DNA of 21,025 bases from IMG/VR virus record IMGVR_UViG_3300007541_000292, positions 1-21,025 of that record; one strand, given 5' to 3'. Each line of letters opens with the position of its first letter. Position 1 is the stretch's first letter. The translations under genes and the position numbers were made by a program. The DNA is from a virus. Shown piece by piece: positions 2,154 to 21,025 of this stretch. The notes below the pieces were generated by a model. That model searched no databases. It was not told the DNA's origin and was given only the letters and a program-made list of their open reading frames with translations.

Positions 2154-3056
2154 TTAAAAGTTGCCAGTTCTATTGCGTTCTTCTTCTCGCTCAAATGCTT
2201 CAGCGTTCTGTCTACTGAAACTAGGAGTAAAGTCATTCATTTCTAAAATGTCATCACGTATGTTCTGCATTTTCTTTTCGATGTGCAATACTCTGGTAAA
2301 ACTATTTGTAATAGCGGCAGTGTAATAAGCAAATGGGTTTTGTGATTTGCTTTCATCAAACTGTAAACCAATTTGTGCTAACTGTAACAATGCTTGGCTA
2401 CGCATCTCATCGTTGTATGTGTATCCACGCCAGTTACTACGAGTAGCATAACGCTCACATAACTTCATAAACATATGAGCCAGTTTGTTAGTCATTTGAC
2501 CATGCTCTTTGTTAAACTCACCAGTCTCTAAGTCACCACGCCAGTGACTTTTACCAACAACATAAGGTTCTAAGTCCTCTGTAACTTTATAGTGAAAGAA
2601 AGGTGGGAAGTTACACTTCACATATTTTGCACGTTCTTTTTTAGCACGTTTGGCAGGATCGGGTTCGTAGTCCTCTTCTTCTTCAATATCCTCGTCGTCT
2701 ACAGTTTCCCCTTCAGGTAATGCTTTTTTATCTTCTTTGAGAGGAATGTGTTCAAACGTCATAACTCTAAACACTAAATCAGTAACAGCTACGCTACTAG
2801 GTTTAAGTTTAAACTCGTCTAGTTTAACCTTGCTTTTAGGGTCACCTAACAGTGCGGCTTCATGTGCTAGTTTAGCAAGCCTGTCTGCACGTAATTTTAA
2901 TGCTTCTTTGACGTTTGTTTTATTAATTTTACCTACATTTGCAACTATCATGTCGTAGTCTGCGTATTCAGGTTGTGTATATGAACAGTAGGTATTTTTA
3001 GATTTGTGTATTTCTTTGAGGATATCTTTGTTGTTAAGATAGTTTTGTCTTCTCAT
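2154..3056 (-). CDS. 55: gp55-like late-transcription sigma factor
   Basis: The 300-aa product resembles T4 gp55 at two places. Its N-terminus (YLNNKDILKEI, residues 6-16) is like T4 YVNNKELLQAI. Residues 211-263 align with the sigma region-2-like core: GYTYNDEMRSQALLQLA, then FDESKSQNPFAYYTAAITNS, where T4 has [20 protein letters not shown]. Family role: it binds host core RNA polymerase and recognises the TATAAATA-type late promoter. It is longer than T4 gp55 (185 aa). The extra length is mainly residues 20-180, including a very acidic stretch (about 115-133) followed by a basic one (135-147). The C-terminus does not show the T4 clamp-binding ending LDFLYE. AAGGA at 3072-3068 (11 nt spacing) supports the start. 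It is the first gene of the minus-strand cluster. Confidence 0.88.
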   Translation of the reverse strand: MRRQNYLNNKDILKEIHKSKNTYCSYTQPEYADYDMIVANVGKINKTNVKEALKLRADRLAKLAHEAALLGDPKSKVKLDEFKLKPSSVAVTDLVFRVMTFEHIPLKEDKKALPEGETVDDEDIEEEEDYEPDPAKRAKKERAKYVKCNFPPFFHYKVTEDLEPYVVGKSHWRGDLETGEFNKEHGQMTNKLAHMFMKLCERYATRSNWRGYTYNDEMRSQALLQLAQIGLQFDESKSQNPFAYYTAAITNSFTRVLHIEKKMQNIRDDILEMNDFTPSFSRQNAEAFEREEERNRTGNF

Positions 3057-3086
3057 GCTAATATTTATCCTTCTTTATATTAGCAT

Positions 3087-3115
3087 ATTATAAAGCCAAT
3101 AAATACTAAAAGCAA
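3087..3115 (-). promoter_or_regulatory. putative sigma70-type promoter for gp55
   Basis: On the minus strand TTGCTT (3115-3110, 3/6) lies 17 bp before a perfect TATAAT (3092-3087). The predicted start near 3080 leaves a leader of about 24 nt containing AAGGA (3072-3068) before the gp55 ATG. The -35 box overlaps the plus-strand late-promoter block at 3098-3112. The -10 and spacing are good, the -35 is weak. Confidence 0.5.
3098..3112 (+). promoter_or_regulatory. putative T4-type late promoter for the gp48-gp53-hub operon
   Basis: AATAAATACTAAAAG contains AATAAATA, a 7/8 match to the T4 late consensus TATAAATA recognised by gp55. The identical 15 nt occurs at 10366-10380 before gp6, and I found no other copy in the window. 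The start would fall about 50 nt before the gp48 ATG, which has AAAGGA at 3149-3154. Because it is duplicated upstream of two late structural genes I favour a real promoter over chance. Confidence 0.65.
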
Positions 3116-3160
3116 TAAAATTAAAGAGTTACAAGTTTGAATTTTACCAAAGGATAGATA

Positions 3161-4306
3161 ATGGCTAAAACAAGAGGGACGTCGTCTAAAGGAAGATCAG
3201 CGGCAGATACTGCTCGTTTCAATCCTATGCAACAAAATCGTCCTCCTATAGGCGGTAAAGGCACAGGAAATTTTAATCTTGCCGACATGGGTAGAGGCCT
3301 ACAAGGATTGGGCGGCAAGGCCAAGGATCTAATAAGCAATCCCAGTCTTTCTAGATTAAACATCAACGGACTTGTGCCTGGAGGTTTTGGTAAACAGGGT
3401 GGCATGTCTCCCGACATATTCTTTGGCTCTGCTGATAGTGGCACAGGCGCAATTACTCCAGACAACGACTGGAGAGTTAGAGTTACAGCCGCTCCCGCAG
3501 GTCCTTTTACATTTGAAGGACCTATGACAGCACTTGCTAGTGATAGAGGGGTAGTGTTCCCCTATACACCTAATTTACAAATTAATCATAATGCCAATTA
3601 TGGTAGTGTAGCGCCTACACATAGTAACTACCCAAGTTATTTTTATCAGAATAGTGCAGTACAGGCTATTACAATAAGTGCAGACTTTACAGCCCAGGAC
3701 ATATCGCAAGCAGAGTACGTATTAGGAATGATATGGTTCTTTAGATCAGCAACAAAAATGTTTTATGGCGGGCCTAAGTCAGGCAATCCTCCACCAATTG
3801 TTTACCTAGACGGTTACGGAGAGTGGCATTTACCACACGTCCCATGTGTGGTTACAAGTTTTAGCCACACTATGCCACCAAATATTGATTATATAGAATG
3901 TATTGTTGCTAACGGTCCTATAACAAGTATAACTGATAATGTGGCGTCAGGTGACTCAGTGCCGCAAACAGTATCAACACAACCACAACCCGCCCCTGAG
4001 CCAAAACCGGTTGCTCCAATACAAACAGGTCTGGCAACTACAACTACCGCAAATCAAACTGGTGTAGCTACGGGTTTAGCTACCAGTACTTCTACTCTTA
4101 GTAATCAGCAGGGAGCAGTGGTGTCACTCACACCTAAGGTAGAGACAACAGTACAATCAACAGGCAAAACAGCAAGAATACCTACTAAGTCTTCTATATC
4201 ATTAACGTTACAGCCTGTTTATAGCAGAAGGAACATTTCTCAGAAATTTAACTGGGAAGATTTCAGTACAGGTAACCTACTAAAAGGTTCTGGAGGATTT
4301 TTATAA
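3161..4306 (+). CDS. 48: gp48-like baseplate tail-tube cap/initiator protein
   Basis: This 381-aa protein is similar in length to T4 gp48 (364 aa). Residues 1-90 are a Gly/Ser/Lys-rich low-complexity leader, including GRSAADTAR at 11-19. Residues about 95-255 form a compact domain with WRVRVTAAP and AEYVLGMIWFFRSATKMFYG, of the gp48/gp54 tube-cap type. Residues 256-340 are a Pro/Thr/Gln linker. The end ISLTLQPVYSRRNISQKF resembles the T4 gp48 ending. Family role: it sits on the hub and starts tail-tube polymerisation. The gene is first in the plus-strand operon, has SD AAAGGA and overlaps gp53 by one base (TAATG). The gp48 versus gp54 choice rests on the adjacent gp53 and is less sure than the family. 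The leader repeat recurs at the end of the 885-aa ORF. Confidence 0.75.
   Translation: MAKTRGTSSKGRSAADTARFNPMQQNRPPIGGKGTGNFNLADMGRGLQGLGGKAKDLISNPSLSRLNINGLVPGGFGKQGGMSPDIFFGSADSGTGAITPDNDWRVRVTAAPAGPFTFEGPMTALASDRGVVFPYTPNLQINHNANYGSVAPTHSNYPSYFYQNSAVQAITISADFTAQDISQAEYVLGMIWFFRSATKMFYGGPKSGNPPPIVYLDGYGEWHLPHVPCVVTSFSHTMPPNIDYIECIVANGPITSITDNVASGDSVPQTVSTQPQPAPEPKPVAPIQTGLATTTTANQTGVATGLATSTSTLSNQQGAVVSLTPKVETTVQSTGKTARIPTKSSISLTLQPVYSRRNISQKFNWEDFSTGNLLKGSGGFL
3191..3207 (+). repeat. 17-bp direct repeat, copy 1 (GRSAA peptide codons in gp48)
   Basis: GGAAGATCAGCGGCAGA is identical at 7225-7241, same orientation and same reading frame. The following GCTCGT is also shared after a few changed bases, giving GRSAADTAR here and GRSAAETAR there. 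The copies flank gp48-gp53-885-aa ORF, about 4.0 kb apart. Confidence 0.85.
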
Positions 4307-8832: not shown

Positions 8833-9977
8833 TGAATATTGAACAAGTTATTGGACAATTAAAAACTGGCGTCGTACAGGACGGTAACGAATTGAACAAA
8901 CTTATGGCGGGTACTAAAACTCCTGGTGAGGCTGTTAGCAAGTTGTCATCAGCTTTTCCTGGTAGCCAACAAGAAATTTTATCCGGATTTTCTAAGATAC
9001 CTGGTTCAGAAGGTTTCGCAGCCGGTGATGCATCTACTAGCATGGACTTTTTAAAAGGTAAAAGTAATGCGGCTTTGGCAGGGTTAAAGAATAAATTTAG
9101 TGGCGCACTAGAAGGTGCCAATCCTAAACTTAAAGAGCAGTTATCTGCTGAGAATGTTGAAAAAATGAAAGAGACGGCGGAAAAAATACTTAAGGATCCT
9201 GAGACTCAGAAAAAATTTAACCTAGGTTTAAGTAAAATAAAAAACTTCCAGGGCCTGAACAATCTTAAAAATAAATTGTCGTCTAAAGTTAAAGACTTCA
9301 ATGCATCTGCATTTGAAGATCCTAAATTCGACAAACTAAAGGATATGTTTTCTGAACAAGGTATAGACTTACCATTAGACGACGCCGCAACTAAAGCACA
9401 AATGGAAATAGACAAATTTAACCAGGCAGGCGGACTTCAGAGTGTAGGTGATTTAGGCGCAGAACAGATGAATGGGTTCACTACAGCAATGGGTCAAGCA
9501 CAAAGTAAATTTGGAGATGGCAGATACTTACAGGACTTAGGCGACAAGTTAGGCAAGTACCAAATGAATCCTGAAATGCTTGAATCAGCAGGTATGTTGC
9601 AAAAAGGTTTGGGAGACAAATTTAGATCAGGTGCACTAACAGGATCATCTATTCTTAACAATCCTAATAACTGGATGGGAGGCACAAAGCCTGGTAGTAA
9701 AGCCGCTTTCCTAGGTAATCCAAAAGCACAAGAAACAGGCTTTAGGTCAGCATGTAATGACTTTTTTGGAAAAATGAAGAAAAATGGCGGTATTAGTCCA
9801 ACAGACCCAGCCAAGTTTAAAGGCGCTATGATGGCGGTGTCTACACAACTTGGCCCGGTGGGGGCAAAAAATTGGAGACAGGGAACTGGAAATTTAAACG
9901 CATCCCTGACAGCCTACGCAGATAACTTAGCCAAGCATGGAGCTCATGGGGTAAGTGTTTTAGGAGTTAGAAAATGA
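8832..9977 (+). CDS. unrecognised 381-aa protein between gp5 and gp25
   Basis: I do not recognise this protein. It has no signal peptide or clear membrane segment. Residues about 100-175 are Lys-rich and helical (SAENVEKMKETAEKILKD), and the rest is Gly/Ala/Met-rich with many short amphipathic helices and Phe-Gly turns. The C-terminus (NGGISPTDPAKFKGAMMAV, then KNWRQGTGNLNASLTAYADN) looks compact and may be the folded domain. It is translationally coupled on both sides: TAATG overlap with gp5 and ATGA overlap with gp25, with AAGGA at 8819-8823. Its place inside the hub/wedge operon suggests a virion or baseplate assembly protein. It could replace a T4 hub component (for example gp26, gp28 or gp29-type roles), but nothing in the sequence decides this. 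Confidence 0.85.
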   Translation: MNIEQVIGQLKTGVVQDGNELNKLMAGTKTPGEAVSKLSSAFPGSQQEILSGFSKIPGSEGFAAGDASTSMDFLKGKSNAALAGLKNKFSGALEGANPKLKEQLSAENVEKMKETAEKILKDPETQKKFNLGLSKIKNFQGLNNLKNKLSSKVKDFNASAFEDPKFDKLKDMFSEQGIDLPLDDAATKAQMEIDKFNQAGGLQSVGDLGAEQMNGFTTAMGQAQSKFGDGRYLQDLGDKLGKYQMNPEMLESAGMLQKGLGDKFRSGALTGSSILNNPNNWMGGTKPGSKAAFLGNPKAQETGFRSACNDFFGKMKKNGGISPTDPAKFKGAMMAVSTQLGPVGAKNWRQGTGNLNASLTAYADNLAKHGAHGVSVLGVRK

Positions 9978-10348
9978 TAAAATATAAAGGGTTCAGTACA
10001 GTTAACAATACACGAAAAACTAAACTAACTGATTTTGAATTAGCCAAACAGGATTTAATTAATCACTTCCACATTCGTAAAGGTGAAAAACTTCACAATC
10101 CTAATTTTGGAAGTAATCTTTGGTCCGTTGTATTCGATCCATTAACCACATCATCTAAACAGGCAATCATAGACGACATTAAAGCAGTGGTCAGTTACGA
10201 TCCTAGAATTAACGTAGTTAATGTTAACGTTGTAGAATATGACCAAGGCATACAGGTAGAACTTGATCTTGAATACATTGATAGTGATCAAACAGATACT
10301 TTAAGGATGATGTTTGACCAGTCTGATCAAAGTTTAACAGCATTATAA
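9974..10348 (+). CDS. 25: gp25-like baseplate wedge protein
   Basis: The 124-aa product is close to T4 gp25 in size (132 aa) and carries the family features: LAKQDLINHFHIRKGEKLHN followed by PNFGSNLW, then VVFDPLT and the SYDPRINV segment before the closing beta-strands (VELDLEYID). The gp25/GPW family corresponds to TssE of type VI secretion and helps initiate the sheath and stabilise the inner wedge ring with gp6 and gp53. The start is set by AGGAG at 9962-9966 and by ATGA overlap with the upstream gene. The gap to gp6 (43 nt) holds a putative late promoter. Confidence 0.93.
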   Translation: MIKYKGFSTVNNTRKTKLTDFELAKQDLINHFHIRKGEKLHNPNFGSNLWSVVFDPLTTSSKQAIIDDIKAVVSYDPRINVVNVNVVEYDQGIQVELDLEYIDSDQTDTLRMMFDQSDQSLTAL

Positions 10349-10391: not shown

Positions 10392-13300
10392 ATGGCAATT
10401 AATGAACGACAAACAGGACTTTTAGCCGCAGAAGATTGGCAAAAAGTCTATCAGAGTTTTAGGGAGGCAGACTTCCAGAGTTATGACTTTGCGACTCTTC
10501 GCAAGGCCATGATAGACTATCTGCAACTCTACTATCCTGAAGACTTCAATGACTTCATTGAGTCCAGCGAGTATATTGCCTTAATAGATTTAATAGCTTT
10601 CATGGGTCAGAGTTTAGCATTTAGAGCAGACTTAAACACCCGTGAAAACTTTATTGATACAGCTGAGCGTAGAGATAGTATACTACGTCTAGCACGTTTA
10701 GTAAGTTATAATCCCAAAAGAAATATACCAGCATCAGGATTTTTAAAATTTAATAGTGTATCTACTACAGAAACATTGACTGACAGTGCAGGCAAAAATA
10801 TTACAAACATCAATATTAATTGGAACGATATCACTAACCCAGACTGGTTAGAGCAATGGAATACAGTACTTAACTCAGCAATGGTTTCCGGACAAAAAGT
10901 TGGGAAGCCTGCAAATAGTCAAACGTTAGATAGTGTGAGACATGATGAGTATGCTTTTAGTATTAACAATACAGTTGCACCGGTATTCCCGTTTAGTAAA
11001 AGTATTGACGGAACATCAACTAATTTTGAATTAGTTAGTGCAAGTACATTAGGACAACAATATGTTTATGAACAAAATGTAGGCCCTGACGGTACTTTTC
11101 AGATAATTTATAAAAATGACAATTTAGGCAACTCAAGTAATAATACAGGATACTTCTTTTACTTTAAGCAGGGTGCATTAAGTAGCATCGATCTTAACTT
11201 CGACGAAAGTTTAAGTAATCGTGTTGCAAGTATTAACCTAAACAATATTAACAACAATGATGTTTGGTTGTATAGTTTAGATGACAACGATGACATCAGT
11301 GATCTTTGGACTAAGGTCCCTAGTGTTGCTCAAACCAATATCATATATAATTCAGATGACACGCAAAGTCGTCTAGCATACCAGGTAACATCCCGACTAA
11401 ACGATCAGATTAACTTAGTGTTTGGTGATGGTGCATTTGCAGACATCCCTAAAGGAAGATTTAGACTATTTTATAGACAAAGTAACGGACTGACCTATCA
11501 GATTACTCCAGCTGATATGCAAGAAATTTCCTTCAGTGTTCCCTATGTAAGCAAGAGAGGTAGACAGGAAACACTTACTATTGTTGCAAGTTTAGAGTAC
11601 ACAGTCACTAACGCAAGTGCAAGAGAAACGTCAGACCAAATTAGGTTAAAAGCGCCACAACAATACTATACACAAAACCGTATGGTTAATGGTGAAGATT
11701 ATAATATTTTCCCATTTACAAACTTCAGCGACCTAGTTAAGGTCAAAGCAGTTAATAGAACAGCCTCAGGTGTTAGCAGATTTTTAGATGTATCAGATAC
11801 CTCAGGACGTTACAGTAGTACAAATATATTCTGTCAAGATGGTATGCTATATCGCAGAGACAACGATAAAACATTTACATTCGACTTTGTTACTAGTGCG
11901 GATATATTGAATGCGATTAACACACAAGTAAAGCCAGCATTGGCTGAACGAGAAACATTGCATTTTTATTATGCAAACTTTAATAGATATACTTTTCCAA
12001 GTTTATACTGGAATCAAAGCTCAGTAGCAACTAATGTGTGTACTGGGTATTTTGTTAACGCAGATGACGATCCACAAAATATAGGTAGTTACGTAGGTGA
12101 TAACAGAAAATATCTGACTGAAAATAGTTTAATTAAATTTGATGCACCAAGCGGCAAATATTTTACAGCGGATAATCTAATTAAAACAGGTTCACCTGCA
12201 TTGCCTGGTGATCGCTCTACTATCTGGGCAACTATTAATGATGTTGTTACTGATGGTACTAACGGTGGTTTAGGTAATTTAGATAACGGCAACGGTCCTG
12301 TAACGTTAAATGAAATAGTTCCTACAGGTGCCGAGATGGCACAGATTATTCCTACATATAACAACACTCCTAGTAGTACAATAGAGAATACTATTATAGA
12401 ACTACTAAGAGTATATGATGAATTCGGTTTAGGGTACGACCAAACATTAAGAACTTGGTATGTGATTGCCGAAGCAGATTTAGATCTATCAAGTGATTTT
12501 AGTTTAGCTTATGCTAAGAATACAACTAGCGCAAACTTAGATGCAAGTTGGGTTATGCATTTTAAAGCAACTAATCAAGTTTATACAGTTACATATCGAA
12601 GTTTAGAATACATTTACGAGTCTGAAGGCGAAACTAACTTTTATCTAGACGAAACTGTTAAAATTTACGATGCAACAATAGGTGGTATCGTAAGAGATAA
12701 TATCAAGATTTTACGAACTAATACGAAACCTGATAGTTCTGATCCTCTAGCAATAGACTATAACTTACAAGTTTACAAGAATGTTGTAGAGAGTGACGGG
12801 TATATTAATAATAAGCGTTTGCGAGTTAGTTTTACTGATAGAGACGATGACGGAATCGCTGACGATCCTGACTTCTTTGTTAGCTACGTTGATCCAGATA
12901 CTAATCCTAACAACAAACGTGTTTATTTTAAACCAACGACAGATCAATATAGTTTTAATGACACCGAACCGTTACCTGCTGGACAAGTGAACTATTCATT
13001 TGCTAACATAGATGAAATAGAAGCCAACAAGAACGATTACCCAGACGGAAAAATATTCTTTACAACATCTACAAAGTTGTTTTACCAGCTTTCTGTTGTT
13101 AATAACGTTAAAGTAGTTAGTCCTATCTCAGGTTATCAATATTATACAGGAAGGCAGGGTATATACTTCCAGTACAGACACAATGCACCAGGTTACAAGC
13201 GTATAGATCCTAGTCCAAGTAATATAGTTGACTTATTCTTGTTGACTAATGAATACAATGATGATTACAGGTTATGGGCATACGACACAACAGGTAAAAT

Positions 13301-13769
13301 TACCCAACCACTAAGACCAACTAGTGAAGATCTAAGATTAAACTATGCAAGTTTAGAAAACTATAAGAGCATAAGTGACACATTAATTTATAATAGTGCA
13401 AAATTTAAGCCTTTATTTGGAATTAAGGCTGAGAACGGTTTAAGAGCAACCTTTAAGGTTGTTAAAAATCCAAATATTAATATCAGTGATAGTGAGATAA
13501 GAGTACGAGTAGTATCTGCTCTAAACACATATTTTGAATTAGAAAACTGGGATTTCGGTGAGACTTTCTACTTCAGTGAGCTAAGTGCTTATTTGCATGC
13601 AGAACTAGTCCCCTATGTAGCAAGTATTGTTATCGTTCCTGATAATTCTACATACGGTAATCTACAGCAAATTACCTGTGAAGCAGATGAGATTTTTATT
13701 AGTGTGGCAACTGTTGATCAAGTAGCAGTTGTACCAAGTTTAACAGCATCAAACTTAAAGTTAGGTTAA
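10392..13769 (+). CDS. 6: gp6-like baseplate wedge protein, greatly enlarged
   Basis: The 1125-aa protein has both ends of gp6 but is far longer than T4 gp6 (660 aa). N-terminal residues about 20-115 (LRKAMIDYLQLYYPEDFNDF, LIAFMGQSLAFRADLNTREN) are typical of gp6. LVFGDGAFADIPKGRFRLFY (GDG at 345-347) and VNGEDYN (432-438) mark the baseplate-J-like core. The C-terminal part (about 1030-1100: NTYFELENWDFGETFYFSEL) again matches the family. The extra sequence lies mainly between about 460 and 1020 and includes DRDDDGIADDPD at 816-827, an EF-hand/dockerin-like calcium loop. In T4, gp6 dimers link wedges into the inner ring with gp25 and gp53. AAAAGG at 10376-10381 precedes the ATG. The next ORF starts after 3 nt. 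Confidence 0.88.
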   Translation: MAINERQTGLLAAEDWQKVYQSFREADFQSYDFATLRKAMIDYLQLYYPEDFNDFIESSEYIALIDLIAFMGQSLAFRADLNTRENFIDTAERRDSILRLARLVSYNPKRNIPASGFLKFNSVSTTETLTDSAGKNITNININWNDITNPDWLEQWNTVLNSAMVSGQKVGKPANSQTLDSVRHDEYAFSINNTVAPVFPFSKSIDGTSTNFELVSASTLGQQYVYEQNVGPDGTFQIIYKNDNLGNSSNNTGYFFYFKQGALSSIDLNFDESLSNRVASINLNNINNNDVWLYSLDDNDDISDLWTKVPSVAQTNIIYNSDDTQSRLAYQVTSRLNDQINLVFGDGAFADIPKGRFRLFYRQSNGLTYQITPADMQEISFSVPYVSKRGRQETLTIVASLEYTVTNASARETSDQIRLKAPQQYYTQNRMVNGEDYNIFPFTNFSDLVKVKAVNRTASGVSRFLDVSDTSGRYSSTNIFCQDGMLYRRDNDKTFTFDFVTSADILNAINTQVKPALAERETLHFYYANFNRYTFPSLYWNQSSVATNVCTGYFVNADDDPQNIGSYVGDNRKYLTENSLIKFDAPSGKYFTADNLIKTGSPALPGDRSTIWATINDVVTDGTNGGLGNLDNGNGPVTLNEIVPTGAEMAQIIPTYNNTPSSTIENTIIELLRVYDEFGLGYDQTLRTWYVIAEADLDLSSDFSLAYAKNTTSANLDASWVMHFKATNQVYTVTYRSLEYIYESEGETNFYLDETVKIYDATIGGIVRDNIKILRTNTKPDSSDPLAIDYNLQVYKNVVESDGYINNKRLRVSFTDRDDDGIADDPDFFVSYVDPDTNPNNKRVYFKPTTDQYSFNDTEPLPAGQVNYSFANIDEIEANKNDYPDGKIFFTTSTKLFYQLSVVNNVKVVSPISGYQYYTGRQGIYFQYRHNAPGYKRIDPSPSNIVDLFLLTNEYNDDYRLWAYDTTGKITQPLRPTSEDLRLNYASLENYKSISDTLIYNSAKFKPLFGIKAENGLRATFKVVKNPNINISDSEIRVRVVSALNTYFELENWDFGETFYFSELSAYLHAELVPYVASIVIVPDNSTYGNLQQITCEADEIFISVATVDQVAVVPSLTASNLKLG

Positions 13770-13772
13770 TAA

Positions 13773-16700
13773 ATGGCAGTTAGAACATTAGATTTTTTAC
13801 CAACAGTATTCAGGACGCCGTCTAATCAGAAGTTTTTAAATGCAACATTAGAACAGGCAACAACTGAACTAGAGCTTAAACGACTAAATGGATACATTGG
13901 TCGTAAGTTTACTCCTACCTTTAGAAAAACAGACAATTACCTAACAGAAAATACTGACGATAGGACTGATTACCAACTAGAACCTAGTACAGTAGTAAAA
14001 AATGATGCGGGTACTATTACTTTTGCTAATACATATACAGATTTATTGAATAGTTTAGAGTACCACGGTGGTATTACTTATGATCATGACAGATTATTTT
14101 CTGCTGAAGCATATACGTTTACAGGTGAGATAGACTTAGACAAGTTTGTTAACTTTGCGCAGTACTACTGGTTGCCTAGTGGTCCCGACGCAGTAGACAT
14201 TATTACTAGTCCAGTTGCATCCAGTGAAGCATACAGAGTAACTAGAAATACAACAAAGAGTGAATATGCTTTTGCTGATTCAGGCGATAATATTAACAGC
14301 ATAGGATTAGAAGGCAACCCTACTATATACCTAGCACGTGGCGGCAGTTATACTTTTACAGTCAATCAAGGACCTAATAGTTTTTGGATACAGACAGAAC
14401 TTGGTACGTCAGGGGTAAGACTTAACCAACAAAATATTAGTAGTAGAGAAATACTTGGGGTAACAAATAATGGCATAGACACAGGTCAAGTCACATTTAA
14501 TGTACCTCTTAAGACAGCACAAAACTTTTACATAAACATGTTTAAGGTTGCTGATGTAGACCTTTGCAGTGATTTAGATTTTAATCAGATTAATAATCAG
14601 TTATTAAGCACGGTATTAGAAAAATATGGTGGCATTGACGGTCAACGAAATTTACTAGATAAAACAGTTATATTTCCTAGCTTAGATGGTTGGTTGTTTG
14701 GTGGTGTGTTTGACCAAGATGGTGCGAACTACGATTCTGAAACATATGATGAAGGTTACGAACCAACAGATCCTGTAAAATGGGGTATATGGCGTATAGC
14801 ACTTAAAGGTAATCCAGAGGATCCTCTCATAACATTGGAGCCTGTTAGAACAATACCTACTAATAACAAAGTTTTAATTTTAGAAGGAAAAGAAAAAGGT
14901 AACAAGGAGTTCTATAAAGCAGGATCCGGCTACCTACAAGAAATACCTATTATAACTGCTATAATGGATACACTATATTATCAAGATGGTAGTGATGGTG
15001 CTAGGTACGGTATTATTAAACTTGTAGAACCAGAAAGCACAGAAAGTATTAATGTAAACACTGACATAATAGGTAAAACTAATTATACATCCCCCACCGG
15101 TGTCAAGTTCAGTAATGGACTAAAAGTTAAGTTTGACGCAGGGGTCTTGCCTGTAGAATATGCTAACAACAGTTATTACGTAGAAGGAGTAGGAACAGCC
15201 ATTACATTAACTGATGTAACTAGTCTGGTAACACCTGAACCTTTTAGTGAGGACGAATCATTGGGATTCGATCTAGACTTATACGATAGTCAAGGATACG
15301 AATCAAGTGCTAATGCGCCTATTAATCCAGATTATCTGGTTAGTAAAAGAAGTAGCCTAGATGGAAATGCGTGGGCACGTACTAATAGGTGGTTTCACAT
15401 TGACGTAATTAATGCTACTTCTCAGTATAATAATTATACTCCAGTTATTGACCAATCAAAACGTGGCAAAAGACCTATTATAGAATTTAATCCTAATTTA
15501 CAACTCTTTAACTATGGCAAAACTGCTAAAAAGCCTATTGACATTCTAGATGATACCACTTTAGATGCTTTCACTAATGCAGAGGGTTACTCAACTTATA
15601 CATCTGATGGGATAGTATTAGCTAACGGTCAAAGAATAATTTTTACGGCTGACAGAGACGACCTAGTTAGAAATAGAATTTATTCAGTTCAAATTATAGA
15701 CCCTCAGGACGATGGAACTTTCCAGGTACACTTTGAACCTGAAGACACAAATATACAAAAATATGATACTGTAGTGGTAAAATCAGGAGCGACTAATCAG
15801 GGCAAACAATACTGGTTTGATGGTAGTGATTGGATACAGTGTCAGCAAAAAACAAGTTTAAATCAATCACCACTATTTGATGTTTTTAACAAAAGCGGTG
15901 TAAGCCTTAGTGATTCTACTGTTTTCCCAGGCACAACATTTAAAGGCACAAAACTTTTTAGTTATAGACCTAATAATACCGGTACTGTTGATACTATACT
16001 AGGCATAGGCCTTAGTTATAGAAATTTTCAAAGTGTAGGAGATATATTATTTGATTTTAATTTAACATCAGATACATTTAGAACAACTGCTAAAAATGTT
16101 AACTATGTAAACCAAGGGTTACTTCATGTAAACTCTGATAACACAAACTTTACATTGGCAAACGGGTGGCAGAGGACAAACACTGACACTAGACAATTTC
16201 AGGTATTTTCCTATGAATATACCGGAAGCAACCGATTTTTGTATGATGCACAAGAAATATCTAACTTGCCTAGAAAAACATTAAAAGTTTATGTAGGCAG
16301 TGTTCTATTACAGGCATCGCAGTACTCTAAGGTTACAATAAACAATAAACAGTATATTGAGATAGAGTCATCTGTTGATTTAACAGATAAGAATATTACT
16401 ATTCTGTCTCTAAGTAATGATACACTTGACAATACATATTACCAAATACCTGTTAACTTAGACAATAATAGCCTAAATCAAAACTTTAATAGGGTAACAT
16501 TAGGACAGTTGCGAAACCACTTCGCAACATCCTTTGAAAATACTGTAGGGACGGAAGGTATCTTTCCTGGTGGTAATAATAGTAGAGACATAAGAGTAGA
16601 TAGAAGCCAAGGCGGAATTTTGCAACATACTGCAGGCATACCATATGCCATGTTGTTTGCAGGTGATGATCAGACAAACTTTTTTGACAGTTTAGATTAT

Positions 16701-19700
16701 GCAGGCAGAGAATATAGTACCTTTAAAAATAAATTTGTAGAAGCAACATATACACTGCCTGGCATAGAATTTTTAACTGTGGATCAAGCTGTAGAACAGG
16801 TTTTAACAACCTTGAATGAAGCAAAAGACAATACATTCCCATTTTATTATTCAGACATGGTGCCAGTAGGAAGTGAATATACAGAACAAACAAGCACATG
16901 GTATGACGGGAACAGTAAATCTTTTAGGTTAACTAACGTTACCGATATGAATGTTCCTAGTAATAAGTCTGTCCTTATTTTTAACGGGACATCCCAATTA
17001 TTAAGAAATAGAGATTATAATTTTAGTACAGATGGGTTATTTGTTGAGTTTACCACGTCATATACACCCACCGCAGGTGACATTATTACTATAAGAGAAT
17101 ATAGTAACACGCATGGAAGTTTTATCCCAGAGACTCCTACAAAGATGGGGCTATATCCTAGCTTCCAACCAAGACTACTGGTAGATAACACGTACACAAA
17201 CTCAACAACATTTATTGTTGGGCACGACGGCTCAAAGACTCCAGCCTGGGGCGACCTTAGAGATGACATCCTATTAGAATTAGAAAAACGTATCTACAAC
17301 AACTGCAAAGTTGCTTACGATAAAGACAGACTAGACATACATGACGTTTTACCAGGACAATTTAGAGATACTGATTATTCAAGGGCGGAATGTGTTTATA
17401 TTCTAGGCGGTGAATTCGCACGTTGGTCGGGTAACAACAGAATAGACTATAACGAACACGACTTCTTTAATAATTCTGACCCATTTACATACAACTGGAG
17501 CCAAAGTTCTAGCGCAGTTGATGGAGAGTTACTACCAGGTTACTGGCGTGGTGTGTATAGATGGTATTACGATACAGATACTCCACACTTAACACCTTGG
17601 GAATGTTTAGGACTAGCAGAAGAACCTAGTTGGTGGGCAGACGCATACGGTACTGCTCCGTTTTCAGCAGGTAACCTAGTGTTATGGGACGACCTAGAAG
17701 CAGGGTACATTAAAGAGCCTGGCAACGAACGTTATGATTTGAGGTACGCCAGACCTGGTGTCACCAAGTATATACCTATAAACGTATACGGTGAACTAAG
17801 AGCCCCTAATGAGTTCCTAGTAAGAAGCTTCAATGGTAATTATGTAAGTGGTCCGTTTGAAGTAGGTGATGAAAGTCCAGCAGAAACAGCTTGGATTAAG
17901 AGCAGTCACTACCCCTTCGCAGTACAGAAACTACTAGCATTAACGAAGCCAGCAAAGTATTTTGGACTCAACGCTAGAGTGAGCAATTATGCCAAAGACG
18001 AAAATTTAGGACAATATACACTTGCAGACTCTAACCTAAGACTAACACCTAATGATGTGATAGTCAATGGACAGGTAACAAACAATACTAATGTATACGT
18101 AGCAGGGTATGTCAATTGGATATCTGCTTACATGCAGAGTTTTGGCTTAGATGCTGTAGTAACATTGCGCAACAAATTAGACAACTTAAACATCCAACTT
18201 GGTTATAAATTGGCAGGTTTCACTGACAAGTCTTACCTTAGAGTGCTGGCAGAACAGAATAGTCCACAATCTACTACTGATAGTGTTCTAATTCCAGATG
18301 AGGACTACGATCTTTATTTGCAGAAATCTAACCCATTAAACAGACTAAGTTACAGTGCTGTGGTTATTGAGCGGGTAGCCGGAGGATATAAGATTGAAGG
18401 TTATGATTCAGATAACCCGTTCTTTAGAATTGTTCCTAAACAAGATGTAGGGAGCCCCTCTACTCTAACGATTTTTGATGAGACTGTCAATATACAGGAA
18501 AACTTTATTCCTGTATGGGAAACAGTACCATACGGCAGAACTTTTCGGTCTCGTCAAGAAGTAGTAGACTTTTTATTGGGCTATGGAAGATACCTCACAA
18601 GCCAGGGCTTTGTGTTTAATTCACGTCTAGGCACGTTGGGAGAAACCAAGTCATGGTTATTAAGTGCTAAAGAGTTTTTAACATGGTCACAACAAGGTTG
18701 GAGTAACGGAAATTTATTAGTAGTTTCGCCAGCATTTGATCAAGTAGATGTAGTATTGGATGACGGAACAGTAGATAATATTTCAGGTGGTTATAAAGGA
18801 AGTAGAGTACTTGATCAAAACTTCAACATTATTCCAATCAAGAATTTACATATTAACAGAATAGGGAATAGTATAAGCATCAAAGCTCTTGATAATCAAA
18901 CCATATCTCTAGTTATTTTGAATGCAATTACTTACGAGCACTTGTTTGTGCCTAACAATCAAACAGTGTTTAATGATGTAATTTATCAACCTGAACTTAG
19001 CAATAGACAGGGTAGATTAAAACTTGTAGGCTTTAAGACAAATAACTGGGACGGCACATTATCTCCTGGTGGATTTATCTTGAACCAGGACAATATACCT
19101 AATTGGAATAAGAACAAAGATTATAGAAAAGGTTCGTTAGTTAAATTTAAAACAAAATATTTCTCTGCCCTTGAGAACATAGCGGGCACAGTATTGTTTA
19201 ACGAATCTCAATGGTCTGAAATAGATTATAATAAGATTAAAAAAGGTTTATTGCCTAACCTTGCAAACACTTCTGGCAGCATAGAAAAGTTTTACGATAT
19301 AGATGACATCAACCTAGAAAGTAACAAGGATCTATTCAGTAAGAGCTTAATAGGTTATAAGAATAGACCTTACTTAGACGCATTAGGTATAGATGATACA
19401 AGTCAGATAAAGTTTTATCAAGGTTTTATTCAGGAAAAAGGTAGTAAAAATGCTATTAATGCACTTACTAGGGCTAACCTTAATAACCTACAATCAAAGC
19501 TAAGTTTTTATGAAGAATGGGCGTTTAGAACTGGAAGTTACGGTGTGTTAGATCGTAATCAAGTTATCGAAATACAAACAAATGATAACGACTATTCTAA
19601 TACATCTAGTACTGTTAAATTATTAGGACAAAGTGATCCTGTTCCTAATGATACACTTAGCGTTCCATTTAATGATGTTTACAAAAAACCTAAAAAATAT

Positions 19701-21025
19701 GAAGGTAGTCCCTTTATATACAGAGGTATAGGAACAGACTTAAATGTTGATATTAACAAAGCAGGTTATGTAAGATTAGATGATGTAAACCACACTATAT
19801 TTGATATAAGTGATATTGCAACTGCGGCTCAAAACGTCGAACTTATGGGCGTGGGTCATGAAGTATGGGTGGCTAAAGACTGGAACGGTAGTTGGAATGT
19901 TTATAGAATTACAGAAACTAATACTACGGTAACAAAGGTAACAAATATTACTAACAATTTTATGAAGGTTACATGTAGTGTCCCACATAATTTAGTTAAA
20001 GACGATGTAGTTGTATTAAAAGATTTCAGTTTTAAGTTTGATGCAACATACAGAGTCGACAAAGTAGTCAATGAATACGAATTCATAGTGCTTTCGACCT
20101 ATGTAAGAATGAACTTGCTAATAGATCCTAACACAGGTGCTCCTGGTAGCTTAGATGGCACAGGTAATGTTTACAAATTTGTCAGTGTTCGTTACAAGTA
20201 TCCAAGTAGAGCGGCGGCAACTGATCCATTAAACTACTGGAAAGTAGGCGACAAGATCTGGATTGATGAATACAATTCAGATGGTAACTGGCACGTTAGA
20301 GAAAAGACTAACCCTTGGACAAACAATAAGAAGTACACTTGGTCAAGTGGTAGTGCAGACGACCTATACGGTAAGGCTGTTATGGTAGGACATAGTGCTA
20401 CATGGGCGGCAGTAAGCGCACCTGGCGAAGGTACTGGTCGAGTACTTGTATATGATATTAACAGTCTGAATGATTTAGATTACAATCAAATTTTAACAGC
20501 TGAAGTGGGTGCCAGTAGTGATGTTACAGATGCATTTGGCGACAGTCTCGCAACAGGACAATTAAGTTTTGACTACGATGGTTCAACAGCAATTAGTGAT
20601 GAATACCTTGCTGTTGGCGCACCAGACAGTTATGGCACACGTGGTGGTGTCTTAATTTATAGACTAAGAAGTGGCACTTGGACAACACATCAATACATTG
20701 AACCAGTAAGTGCTAGTGGTGGGGAAGAGTTCGGTAAAGCATTAGCAATTAGCAAAAATGCTAGATGGTTATACGTTGGTGCTCCTGGTGAGGACAGGGT
20801 ATACGCATACGGTTTAGATACACAATTAGAAGAACAAAGTGTTACAATTACAGGTGATGGCAGTACACTAACACATGCTTTAGGATTTACTCCTAAGAGC
20901 TTAGAAAGTTTGTTTGTACAAGACAGCGCAGGCACAATTTACAGACCAACTATAGACTACTCTATTAGTGGAAGCAACATAATTTTTGTAGTTGCTCCTA
21001 GTGTTAATGTTACAGTTAAGTCTAA
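13773..21025 (+). CDS. giant baseplate-region structural protein in the gp7 position, 3' end missing
   Basis: The frame from the ATG at 13773 has no stop to the right edge: at least 2417 codons, against 1032 aa for T4 gp7. The N-terminus (MAVRTLDFLPTVFRTPSNQ, then NFAQYYWLPSGPDAV near 125-140) is of a type I associate with marine T4-like phages at this locus, some annotated gp7 or VrlC-like. Residues 182-256 look cupredoxin-like (TIYLARGGSYTFTV, VTNNGIDTGQVTFNVP). A Trp/Tyr-rich central region follows (about 1180-1300). Residues 2199-2351 hold three FG-GAP repeats, and 2361-2417 is a fibre-type module. By position it would be the outer wedge arm or a receptor-facing part of the baseplate. No T4 gp7 motif proves homology. 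It starts 3 nt after gp6 with only a weak TTAGG at 13761-13765. Confidence 0.7.
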   Translation, partial: MAVRTLDFLPTVFRTPSNQKFLNATLEQATTELELKRLNGYIGRKFTPTFRKTDNYLTENTDDRTDYQLEPSTVVKNDAGTITFANTYTDLLNSLEYHGGITYDHDRLFSAEAYTFTGEIDLDKFVNFAQYYWLPSGPDAVDIITSPVASSEAYRVTRNTTKSEYAFADSGDNINSIGLEGNPTIYLARGGSYTFTVNQGPNSFWIQTELGTSGVRLNQQNISSREILGVTNNGIDTGQVTFNVPLKTAQNFYINMFKVADVDLCSDLDFNQINNQLLSTVLEKYGGIDGQRNLLDKTVIFPSLDGWLFGGVFDQDGANYDSETYDEGYEPTDPVKWGIWRIALKGNPEDPLITLEPVRTIPTNNKVLILEGKEKGNKEFYKAGSGYLQEIPIITAIMDTLYYQDGSDGARYGIIKLVEPESTESINVNTDIIGKTNYTSPTGVKFSNGLKVKFDAGVLPVEYANNSYYVEGVGTAITLTDVTSLVTPEPFSEDESLGFDLDLYDSQGYESSANAPINPDYLVSKRSSLDGNAWARTNRWFHIDVINATSQYNNYTPVIDQSKRGKRPIIEFNPNLQLFNYGKTAKKPIDILDDTTLDAFTNAEGYSTYTSDGIVLANGQRIIFTADRDDLVRNRIYSVQIIDPQDDGTFQVHFEPEDTNIQKYDTVVVKSGATNQGKQYWFDGSDWIQCQQKTSLNQSPLFDVFNKSGVSLSDSTVFPGTTFKGTKLFSYRPNNTGTVDTILGIGLSYRNFQSVGDILFDFNLTSDTFRTTAKNVNYVNQGLLHVNSDNTNFTLANGWQRTNTDTRQFQVFSYEYTGSNRFLYDAQEISNLPRKTLKVYVGSVLLQASQYSKVTINNKQYIEIESSVDLTDKNITILSLSNDTLDNTYYQIPVNLDNNSLNQNFNRVTLGQLRNHFATSFENTVGTEGIFPGGNNSRDIRVDRSQGGILQHTAGIPYAMLFAGDDQTNFFDSLDYAGREYSTFKNKFVEATYTLPGIEFLTVDQAVEQVLTTLNEAKDNTFPFYYSDMVPVGSEYTEQTSTWYDGNSKSFRLTNVTDMNVPSNKSVLIFNGTSQLLRNRDYNFSTDGLFVEFTTSYTPTAGDIITIREYSNTHGSFIPETPTKMGLYPSFQPRLLVDNTYTNSTTFIVGHDGSKTPAWGDLRDDILLELEKRIYNNCKVAYDKDRLDIHDVLPGQFRDTDYSRAECVYILGGEFARWSGNNRIDYNEHDFFNNSDPFTYNWSQSSSAVDGELLPGYWRGVYRWYYDTDTPHLTPWECLGLAEEPSWWADAYGTAPFSAGNLVLWDDLEAGYIKEPGNERYDLRYARPGVTKYIPINVYGELRAPNEFLVRSFNGNYVSGPFEVGDESPAETAWIKSSHYPFAVQKLLALTKPAKYFGLNARVSNYAKDENLGQYTLADSNLRLTPNDVIVNGQVTNNTNVYVAGYVNWISAYMQSFGLDAVVTLRNKLDNLNIQLGYKLAGFTDKSYLRVLAEQNSPQSTTDSVLIPDEDYDLYLQKSNPLNRLSYSAVVIERVAGGYKIEGYDSDNPFFRIVPKQDVGSPSTLTIFDETVNIQENFIPVWETVPYGRTFRSRQEVVDFLLGYGRYLTSQGFVFNSRLGTLGETKSWLLSAKEFLTWSQQGWSNGNLLVVSPAFDQVDVVLDDGTVDNISGGYKGSRVLDQNFNIIPIKNLHINRIGNSISIKALDNQTISLVILNAITYEHLFVPNNQTVFNDVIYQPELSNRQGRLKLVGFKTNNWDGTLSPGGFILNQDNIPNWNKNKDYRKGSLVKFKTKYFSALENIAGTVLFNESQWSEIDYNKIKKGLLPNLANTSGSIEKFYDIDDINLESNKDLFSKSLIGYKNRPYLDALGIDDTSQIKFYQGFIQEKGSKNAINALTRANLNNLQSKLSFYEEWAFRTGSYGVLDRNQVIEIQTNDNDYSNTSSTVKLLGQSDPVPNDTLSVPFNDVYKKPKKYEGSPFIYRGIGTDLNVDINKAGYVRLDDVNHTIFDISDIATAAQNVELMGVGHEVWVAKDWNGSWNVYRITETNTTVTKVTNITNNFMKVTCSVPHNLVKDDVVVLKDFSFKFDATYRVDKVVNEYEFIVLSTYVRMNLLIDPNTGAPGSLDGTGNVYKFVSVRYKYPSRAAATDPLNYWKVGDKIWIDEYNSDGNWHVREKTNPWTNNKKYTWSSGSADDLYGKAVMVGHSATWAAVSAPGEGTGRVLVYDINSLNDLDYNQILTAEVGASSDVTDAFGDSLATGQLSFDYDGSTAISDEYLAVGAPDSYGTRGGVLIYRLRSGTWTTHQYIEPVSASGGEEFGKALAISKNARWLYVGAPGEDRVYAYGLDTQLEEQSVTITGDGSTLTHALGFTPKSLESLFVQDSAGTIYRPTIDYSISGSNIIFVVAPSVNVTVKS
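20367..20826 (+). repeat. three FG-GAP (integrin-alpha type) repeats within the giant ORF
   Basis: Three tandem units begin at residues 2199 (YGKAV), 2255 (FGDSLA) and 2320 (FGKALA). Each leads to a small-residue block, AAVSAPGEGTGRVLVYD, LAVGAPDSYGTRGGVLIY and LYVGAPGEDRVYAYG. The (F/Y)G...VGAP...G.V.(V/I)Y pattern is that of FG-GAP blades of beta-propellers. A full propeller needs six or seven blades; only three are visible here, and the sequence immediately before (SSGSADDLYG) gives no further copy. Confidence 0.75.
20853..21025 (+). other. fibre-type GDGS...TPKSL...DYSISG module, cut by the window edge
   Basis: Residues 2361-2417 read GDGSTLTHALGFTPKSLESL, then RPTIDYSISGSNIIFVVAP. This pattern (GDGST..., ...RP..DY.(I/V)SG..I.F..AP) is a beta module that recurs in many phage tail-fibre proteins. 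It follows the FG-GAP block directly. The frame is still open at the last base. Confidence 0.6.

Follow-up and report, generated by a model that had tools for sequence, protein, structure and literature searches.

The window analysed here, 21,025 nucleotides of the IMG/VR virus record IMGVR_UViG_3300007541_000292, contains genes for a gp25-like and a gp6-like baseplate wedge protein followed, in that order, by a giant open reading frame of 2417 codons that is still open where the window ends (Table 1). The complete gene is present in a 65-kb IMG/VR contig (L001:3001-13950) and encodes 3650 residues, the first 2417 of which are identical to those of the window ORF. The protein belongs to the PHROG 10938 family, and HMM comparison delimits two conserved blocks, residues 1-2079 (the core) and 2849-3330, which lie on either side of a large insert and are both conserved in all of the cultured phages compared. 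The record of the ortholog in phage PA5oct carries the annotation ESI-MS/MS.

Table 1. Features of the baseplate region and of the FG-GAP insert in the window (residue numbers refer to the giant ORF)
Feature	Position	Strand	Basis
gp25-like baseplate wedge protein	9974..10348	+	PHROG 43 E=2.2e-15, PHROG 261 E=1.4e-15
gp6-like baseplate wedge protein, immediately upstream of the giant ORF	10392..13769	+	PHROG 10646 E=3.4e-296, PHROG 219 E=3.7e-18
Giant wedge-slot protein, first 2417 of 3650 residues	13773..21023	+	PHROG 10938 E=3.8e-278
Conserved core block, residues 1-2079	13773..20009	+	common to PA5oct, SCTP-2, Phosso, Atu_ph07, 121Q, XaC1
Linker and acceptor hairpin strand 1 (GDKIWIDEYN...GNWHVREK)	20010..20330	+	junctions compared with PA5oct, Phosso, L083, L093
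FG-GAP blade 1, residues 2187-2229	20331..20459	+	blade HMM and AF2 model
FG-GAP blade 2, residues 2245-2298	20505..20666	+	blade HMM and AF2 model
FG-GAP blade 3, strands one to three, residues 2309-2347	20697..20813	+	blade HMM and AF2 model
Small beta domain (start), predicted between strands 3 and 4 of blade 3	20814..21023	+	strand placement from the model

An earlier note, written from the window alone, had described three FG-GAP units about 2200 residues into the giant ORF and had named a profile search, a count of further blades beyond the window edge and a structure prediction as ways of checking them; all three analyses bore the description out. The three units occupy 20331-20813, and four more follow in L001, giving seven. 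The small beta domain of blade 3 runs on beyond the window, and blades 4-7 (residues 2426-2845) lie at residues 2426-2477, 2557-2605, 2702-2777 and 2800-2845 of the L001 ORF, the whole series as found with our own blade HMM extending over residues 2187-2845. The Pfam family FG-GAP_2 (PF14312), with a curated cut-off of 23 bits, reaches 29.9 bits for the in-window portion of the insert by itself, 100.3 bits (E=6.8e-29) for the complete insert in the full-length gene and up to 117.5 bits (E down to 3e-34) for the inserts of relatives. When the in-window part is scored inside the whole 2417-residue protein, the value falls to 14.9 bits, and thus routine annotation of the contig would miss the FG-GAP repeats.

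A profile built from 23 relatives (A2) matched integrin alpha-4 in the PDB with E=2.1e-12, and nearly all other matches were integrins as well. AlphaFold2 prediction on the same alignment (711 residues) yielded a confident propeller (pLDDT 80, pTM 0.85), for which the top Foldseek matches were the propellers of integrin alpha-V, alpha-5 and alpha-4, with E values down to 4e-10 and, for the best matches, TM-scores normalised by target of about 0.5-0.6. The insert is a real integrin-type seven-bladed FG-GAP beta-propeller. The N-terminal propeller of integrin alpha, the best match of both the profile and the structure, likewise consists of seven FG-GAP repeats; however, the phage propeller is only about 12% identical to it, lacks the DxDxDG calcium motif, and is predicted to carry domains in the loops between strands 3 and 4 of blades 3-5, all within a wedge-slot protein. 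A motif search for DxDxDGxxD found none in L001, L002, L038 and L047; in L011 and L025 it matched positions that are not part of the propeller. In the model, strands three and four would be separated by a small domain in each of blades 3, 4 and 5, and in blade 6 a long loop would separate strands two and three. A Pfam scan of the inserts revealed weak CBM_X2 matches under the curated cut-off and no glycosidase family. The phage repeats themselves are well over the FG-GAP_2 cut-off, and differ from the Pfam family in being fused into a protein of a jumbo-phage baseplate operon.

The earlier note had also assigned the ORF to the gp7 slot of a T4-like baseplate. By gene order this assignment holds, because the ORF follows the gp25-like and gp6-like genes just as T4 gp7 follows gp6, but homology to T4 gp7 (1032 aa) is not detectable: in profile comparison with the single T4 sequence as target, the hhalign probability was below 1% for the core, the insert and the downstream ORF. 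The model of core residues 1041-2140 is of low confidence (pLDDT 54, pTM 0.33), its fold matches are uninformative, and Foldseek returned no wedge protein among its top 50 matches; the T4 gp7 chain was likewise not among the top 50 matches of the propeller. Since similarity to T4 gp7 was not found and the core is poorly modelled, the protein is called wedge-slot protein here and not gp7. The remark that T4 gp7 has nothing comparable to the repeats agrees with the T4 result, FG-GAP_2 having no match in T4. The gp7 ortholog of phage XM1 has only 242 residues (PMC10457771), and therefore large lineage-specific additions are to be expected in this slot. In the T4-like cyanophage S-CAM4, the slot between gp6 and gp8 is filled by a giant protein of 3494 aa with a YHYH domain (60634-71118; L068:6635-17119). 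It was considered as a bridge to gp7 and rejected, having neither similarity to the family described here nor FG-GAP repeats; its size, without such similarity, suggests that giant proteins may have evolved in this slot more than once.

The propeller interrupts a beta-hairpin after its first strand, within which GNWHVREK begins at 20283. The junction reads GKVWIDSINSDNDWAVAVVSGSTITNIRSRQNLVDSKLFENAYFYD in PA5oct versus GDKIWIDEYNSDGNWHVREK, about 670 residues and then GWKVLRTETPQVESRAINKAYLYD in L001, and the propeller-free hairpin is readable in PA5oct, Phosso, Atu_ph07, SCTP-2 and two uncultured relatives, L083 and L093, in which the reading frame and the flanks are intact. At the insertion site the propeller is absent from all six cultured relatives examined (PA5oct, SCTP-2, Phosso, Atu_ph07, 121Q and XaC1). 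The two conserved blocks are separated by fewer than 100 residues in 121Q and XaC1, by up to about 300 in PA5oct, by about 390 in SCTP-2 and by a long unrelated stretch in Phosso and Atu_ph07, in each case without FG-GAP. The giant virion proteins PA5oct gp355, 121Q gp582 and Atu_ph07 gp180 (PHROG 10938) resemble the window protein in operon position, core and second block, but lack the propeller.

Scanning IMG/VR with the core gave at least 594 matching stretches, the best 80 of which were used, so that the sample leans to close relatives. Among these best 80, the propeller is present in 59 of the 61 uncultured relatives with both flanks, L083 and L093 being the exceptions, and seven blades were detected in 36 of the 61, six in 20, eight in two and five in one. 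In a tree of the core, rooted on 121Q and XaC1 and with short deep nodes, the propeller clade excludes all six cultured phages; nested in it, L083 and L093 form a pair (support 1.0) in a group of seven (support 1.0), the position of which relative to its neighbours is weakly supported (0.37). With the cultured phages outside the clade and this pair nested inside it, the simplest reading would be one gain of the propeller and one loss, in L083/L093.

Neither a search of 50,697 records of cultured phages nor a pattern scan of bacterial and archaeal genomes revealed relatives of the insert; the insert of L011 gave a weak match (E 0.5) to Synechococcus phages, in a gene without an FG-GAP family. 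FG-GAP_2 repeats occur elsewhere in two of the cultured relatives. Of the 55 matches in Phosso, most lie in two ORFs (3702 and 3182 residues), and a 'hemagglutinin' gene of Atu_ph07 that adjoins tail-sheath genes contains four; there are none in PA5oct, SCTP-2, 121Q and XaC1. In Phosso, the region 48338-68978 (L069:2339-22979) encodes two neighbouring giant hypothetical proteins with FG-GAP_2 repeats far beyond one propeller each.

Conservation was compared in 17 related pairs that are partly non-independent. In these pairs, identity was lower by 1.0 point in the blades than in the core, which is not significant, whereas inserted domains of more than 40 residues were less conserved than the core by 6.8 points (p=0.004) and less conserved than the blades by a mean of 5.8 points (p=0.003, the partial non-independence of the pairs applying here as well). 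Most indels of the region also fall in the inserted domains. It should be noted that conservation is also lower in the linkers, in core residues 200-520 and in the C-terminal part than in the remainder of the core, and thus the inserted domains are not uniquely fast. Taken as a whole, the insert is slightly better conserved than the core among the nearest relatives of the window, and close relatives share 92-94% identity in blade 5 versus about 70% in the core. A hypervariable propeller was therefore rejected: its blades keep pace with the core in their evolution, faster change being confined to the inserted domains and some other segments. The propeller core is thus not a hypervariable determinant of host range, and the data agree better with a conserved scaffold that bears variable domains than with a hypervariable face for binding.

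We favour, with a probability of roughly 0.55, the interpretation that the seven-bladed propeller in the hairpin of the wedge-slot protein serves as a platform at the baseplate rim, the inserted domains and loops of which contact the host. The computations establish the fold family, the number of blades, the site of insertion, the distribution and the differing rates. Beyond these, the propeller would protrude from the rim as a stable platform, contact with a glycan or protein on the host surface might be made by the strand 3-4 loop domains of blades 3, 4 and 5 and by the exposed loops, and the wedge itself would bear an adhesin beside separate fibres. The propeller would then probably be an exposed surface module for gripping the host and may have a role in host range; receptor or glycan binding by the propeller is plausible. 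The earlier note had proposed such a receptor- or glycan-binding propeller, carried on the wedge instead of a separate fibre, and this reading is supported in part. Several observations point in this direction: the inserted domains are more variable than the blades and carry most of the indels, the inserts contain the sub-cut-off CBM_X2 matches, separate proteins of Phosso and Atu_ph07 also contain FG-GAP_2 repeats, and propellers have precedents in phage host recognition, namely the phi11 receptor-binding protein and PhiKZ gp131C (PMC4901313). Against it, the variability of the blades is no higher than that of the core, near-universal retention also fits an architectural role, the CBM_X2 matches are below the cut-off and the DxDxDG motif is absent.

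The main rival to host contact is an architectural role, in which the propeller would be a docking platform for fibres or would mediate wedge-to-wedge contacts in a very large baseplate, and would have no host ligand. Propellers are general protein-docking platforms, and the equal rates of blades and core, the strong conservation of blade 5, the retention in 59 of 61 relatives (among the best 80 of at least 594) and the constant blade count are all in line with such a role. However, the propeller is absent from all six cultured relatives and from L083 and L093 although the flanks are conserved, which argues that the baseplate can be built without it, and the faster-changing parts include the domains on the blades. 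We regard an architectural role as possible but less likely. An enzymatic propeller, for example a glycan depolymerase or a sialidase-like hydrolase, is improbable: some phage propellers do hydrolyse glycans, those of the K1F and phi92 endosialidases among them (PMC4901313), but both the sequence and the structure comparisons point to integrin-type FG-GAP propellers, which are non-enzymatic, and the Pfam scan of the inserts gave no glycosidase family. Chance matches or an assembly chimera, for which only the low score of the in-window part inside the full protein could be cited, can practically be dismissed, as the architecture is repeated in dozens of separate contigs with E values down to 3e-34.

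As a tentative proposal, which may well need revision, a widespread clade of uncultured jumbo myoviruses would carry a host-adhesion module in the wedge protein, with exchangeable recognition domains on blades 3-5, gained once ancestrally at one hairpin and occasionally lost. If the propeller does bind the host, the wedge, beyond the fibres attached to it, would recognise cells, and receptor contact would be tied directly to the trigger of contraction. Relatives that carry or cleanly lack the propeller at a single hairpin provide a natural comparison for this idea. The finding also puts an integrin-like fold, which is best known from animal cell adhesion, into numerous environmental jumbo phages, and no cultured propeller-bearing member was found here.

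None of the papers searched dealt with FG-GAP propellers of a phage tail or baseplate; two other phage propellers are among the closest known systems. PhiKZ gp131C (PDB 4GBF) has a seven-bladed propeller at the baseplate periphery that is suspected to be a receptor-binding domain (PMC4901313); like the insert, it is a seven-bladed propeller on a jumbo myovirus baseplate, but it forms the C-terminal domain of another protein, whereas the propeller described here is an internal insert of the wedge-slot protein, and gp131C was not among its top 50 structure matches. The receptor-binding protein of Staphylococcus phage phi11 contains a five-bladed propeller proposed to hold the binding site for host sugars (PMC4901313); it is a separate, trimeric protein with five blades, in contrast to the seven blades and internal position found here.

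Further features of the wedge-slot protein were observed. Within the core, positions 19101-19247 of the window encode a module of ~49 residues that resembles a CBM5/12 chitin-binding domain (WNKNKDYRKGSLVKFKTKYFSAL); it is not present at that core position in cultured relatives, and matches to it occur elsewhere in PA5oct, L013 and others. Downstream of the 3650-aa ORF, a short gap (L001:13950-13963) precedes an ORF of 1014 aa, an arrangement also present in the close relatives of the window, and in most other clade members the sequence of this second ORF is a C-terminal fusion in a wedge-slot protein of about 4,100-5,100 aa. A version of 6194 residues is encoded at L141:9983-28564, with a core longer by roughly 900 residues and seven blades inside a gap of 1369 residues.
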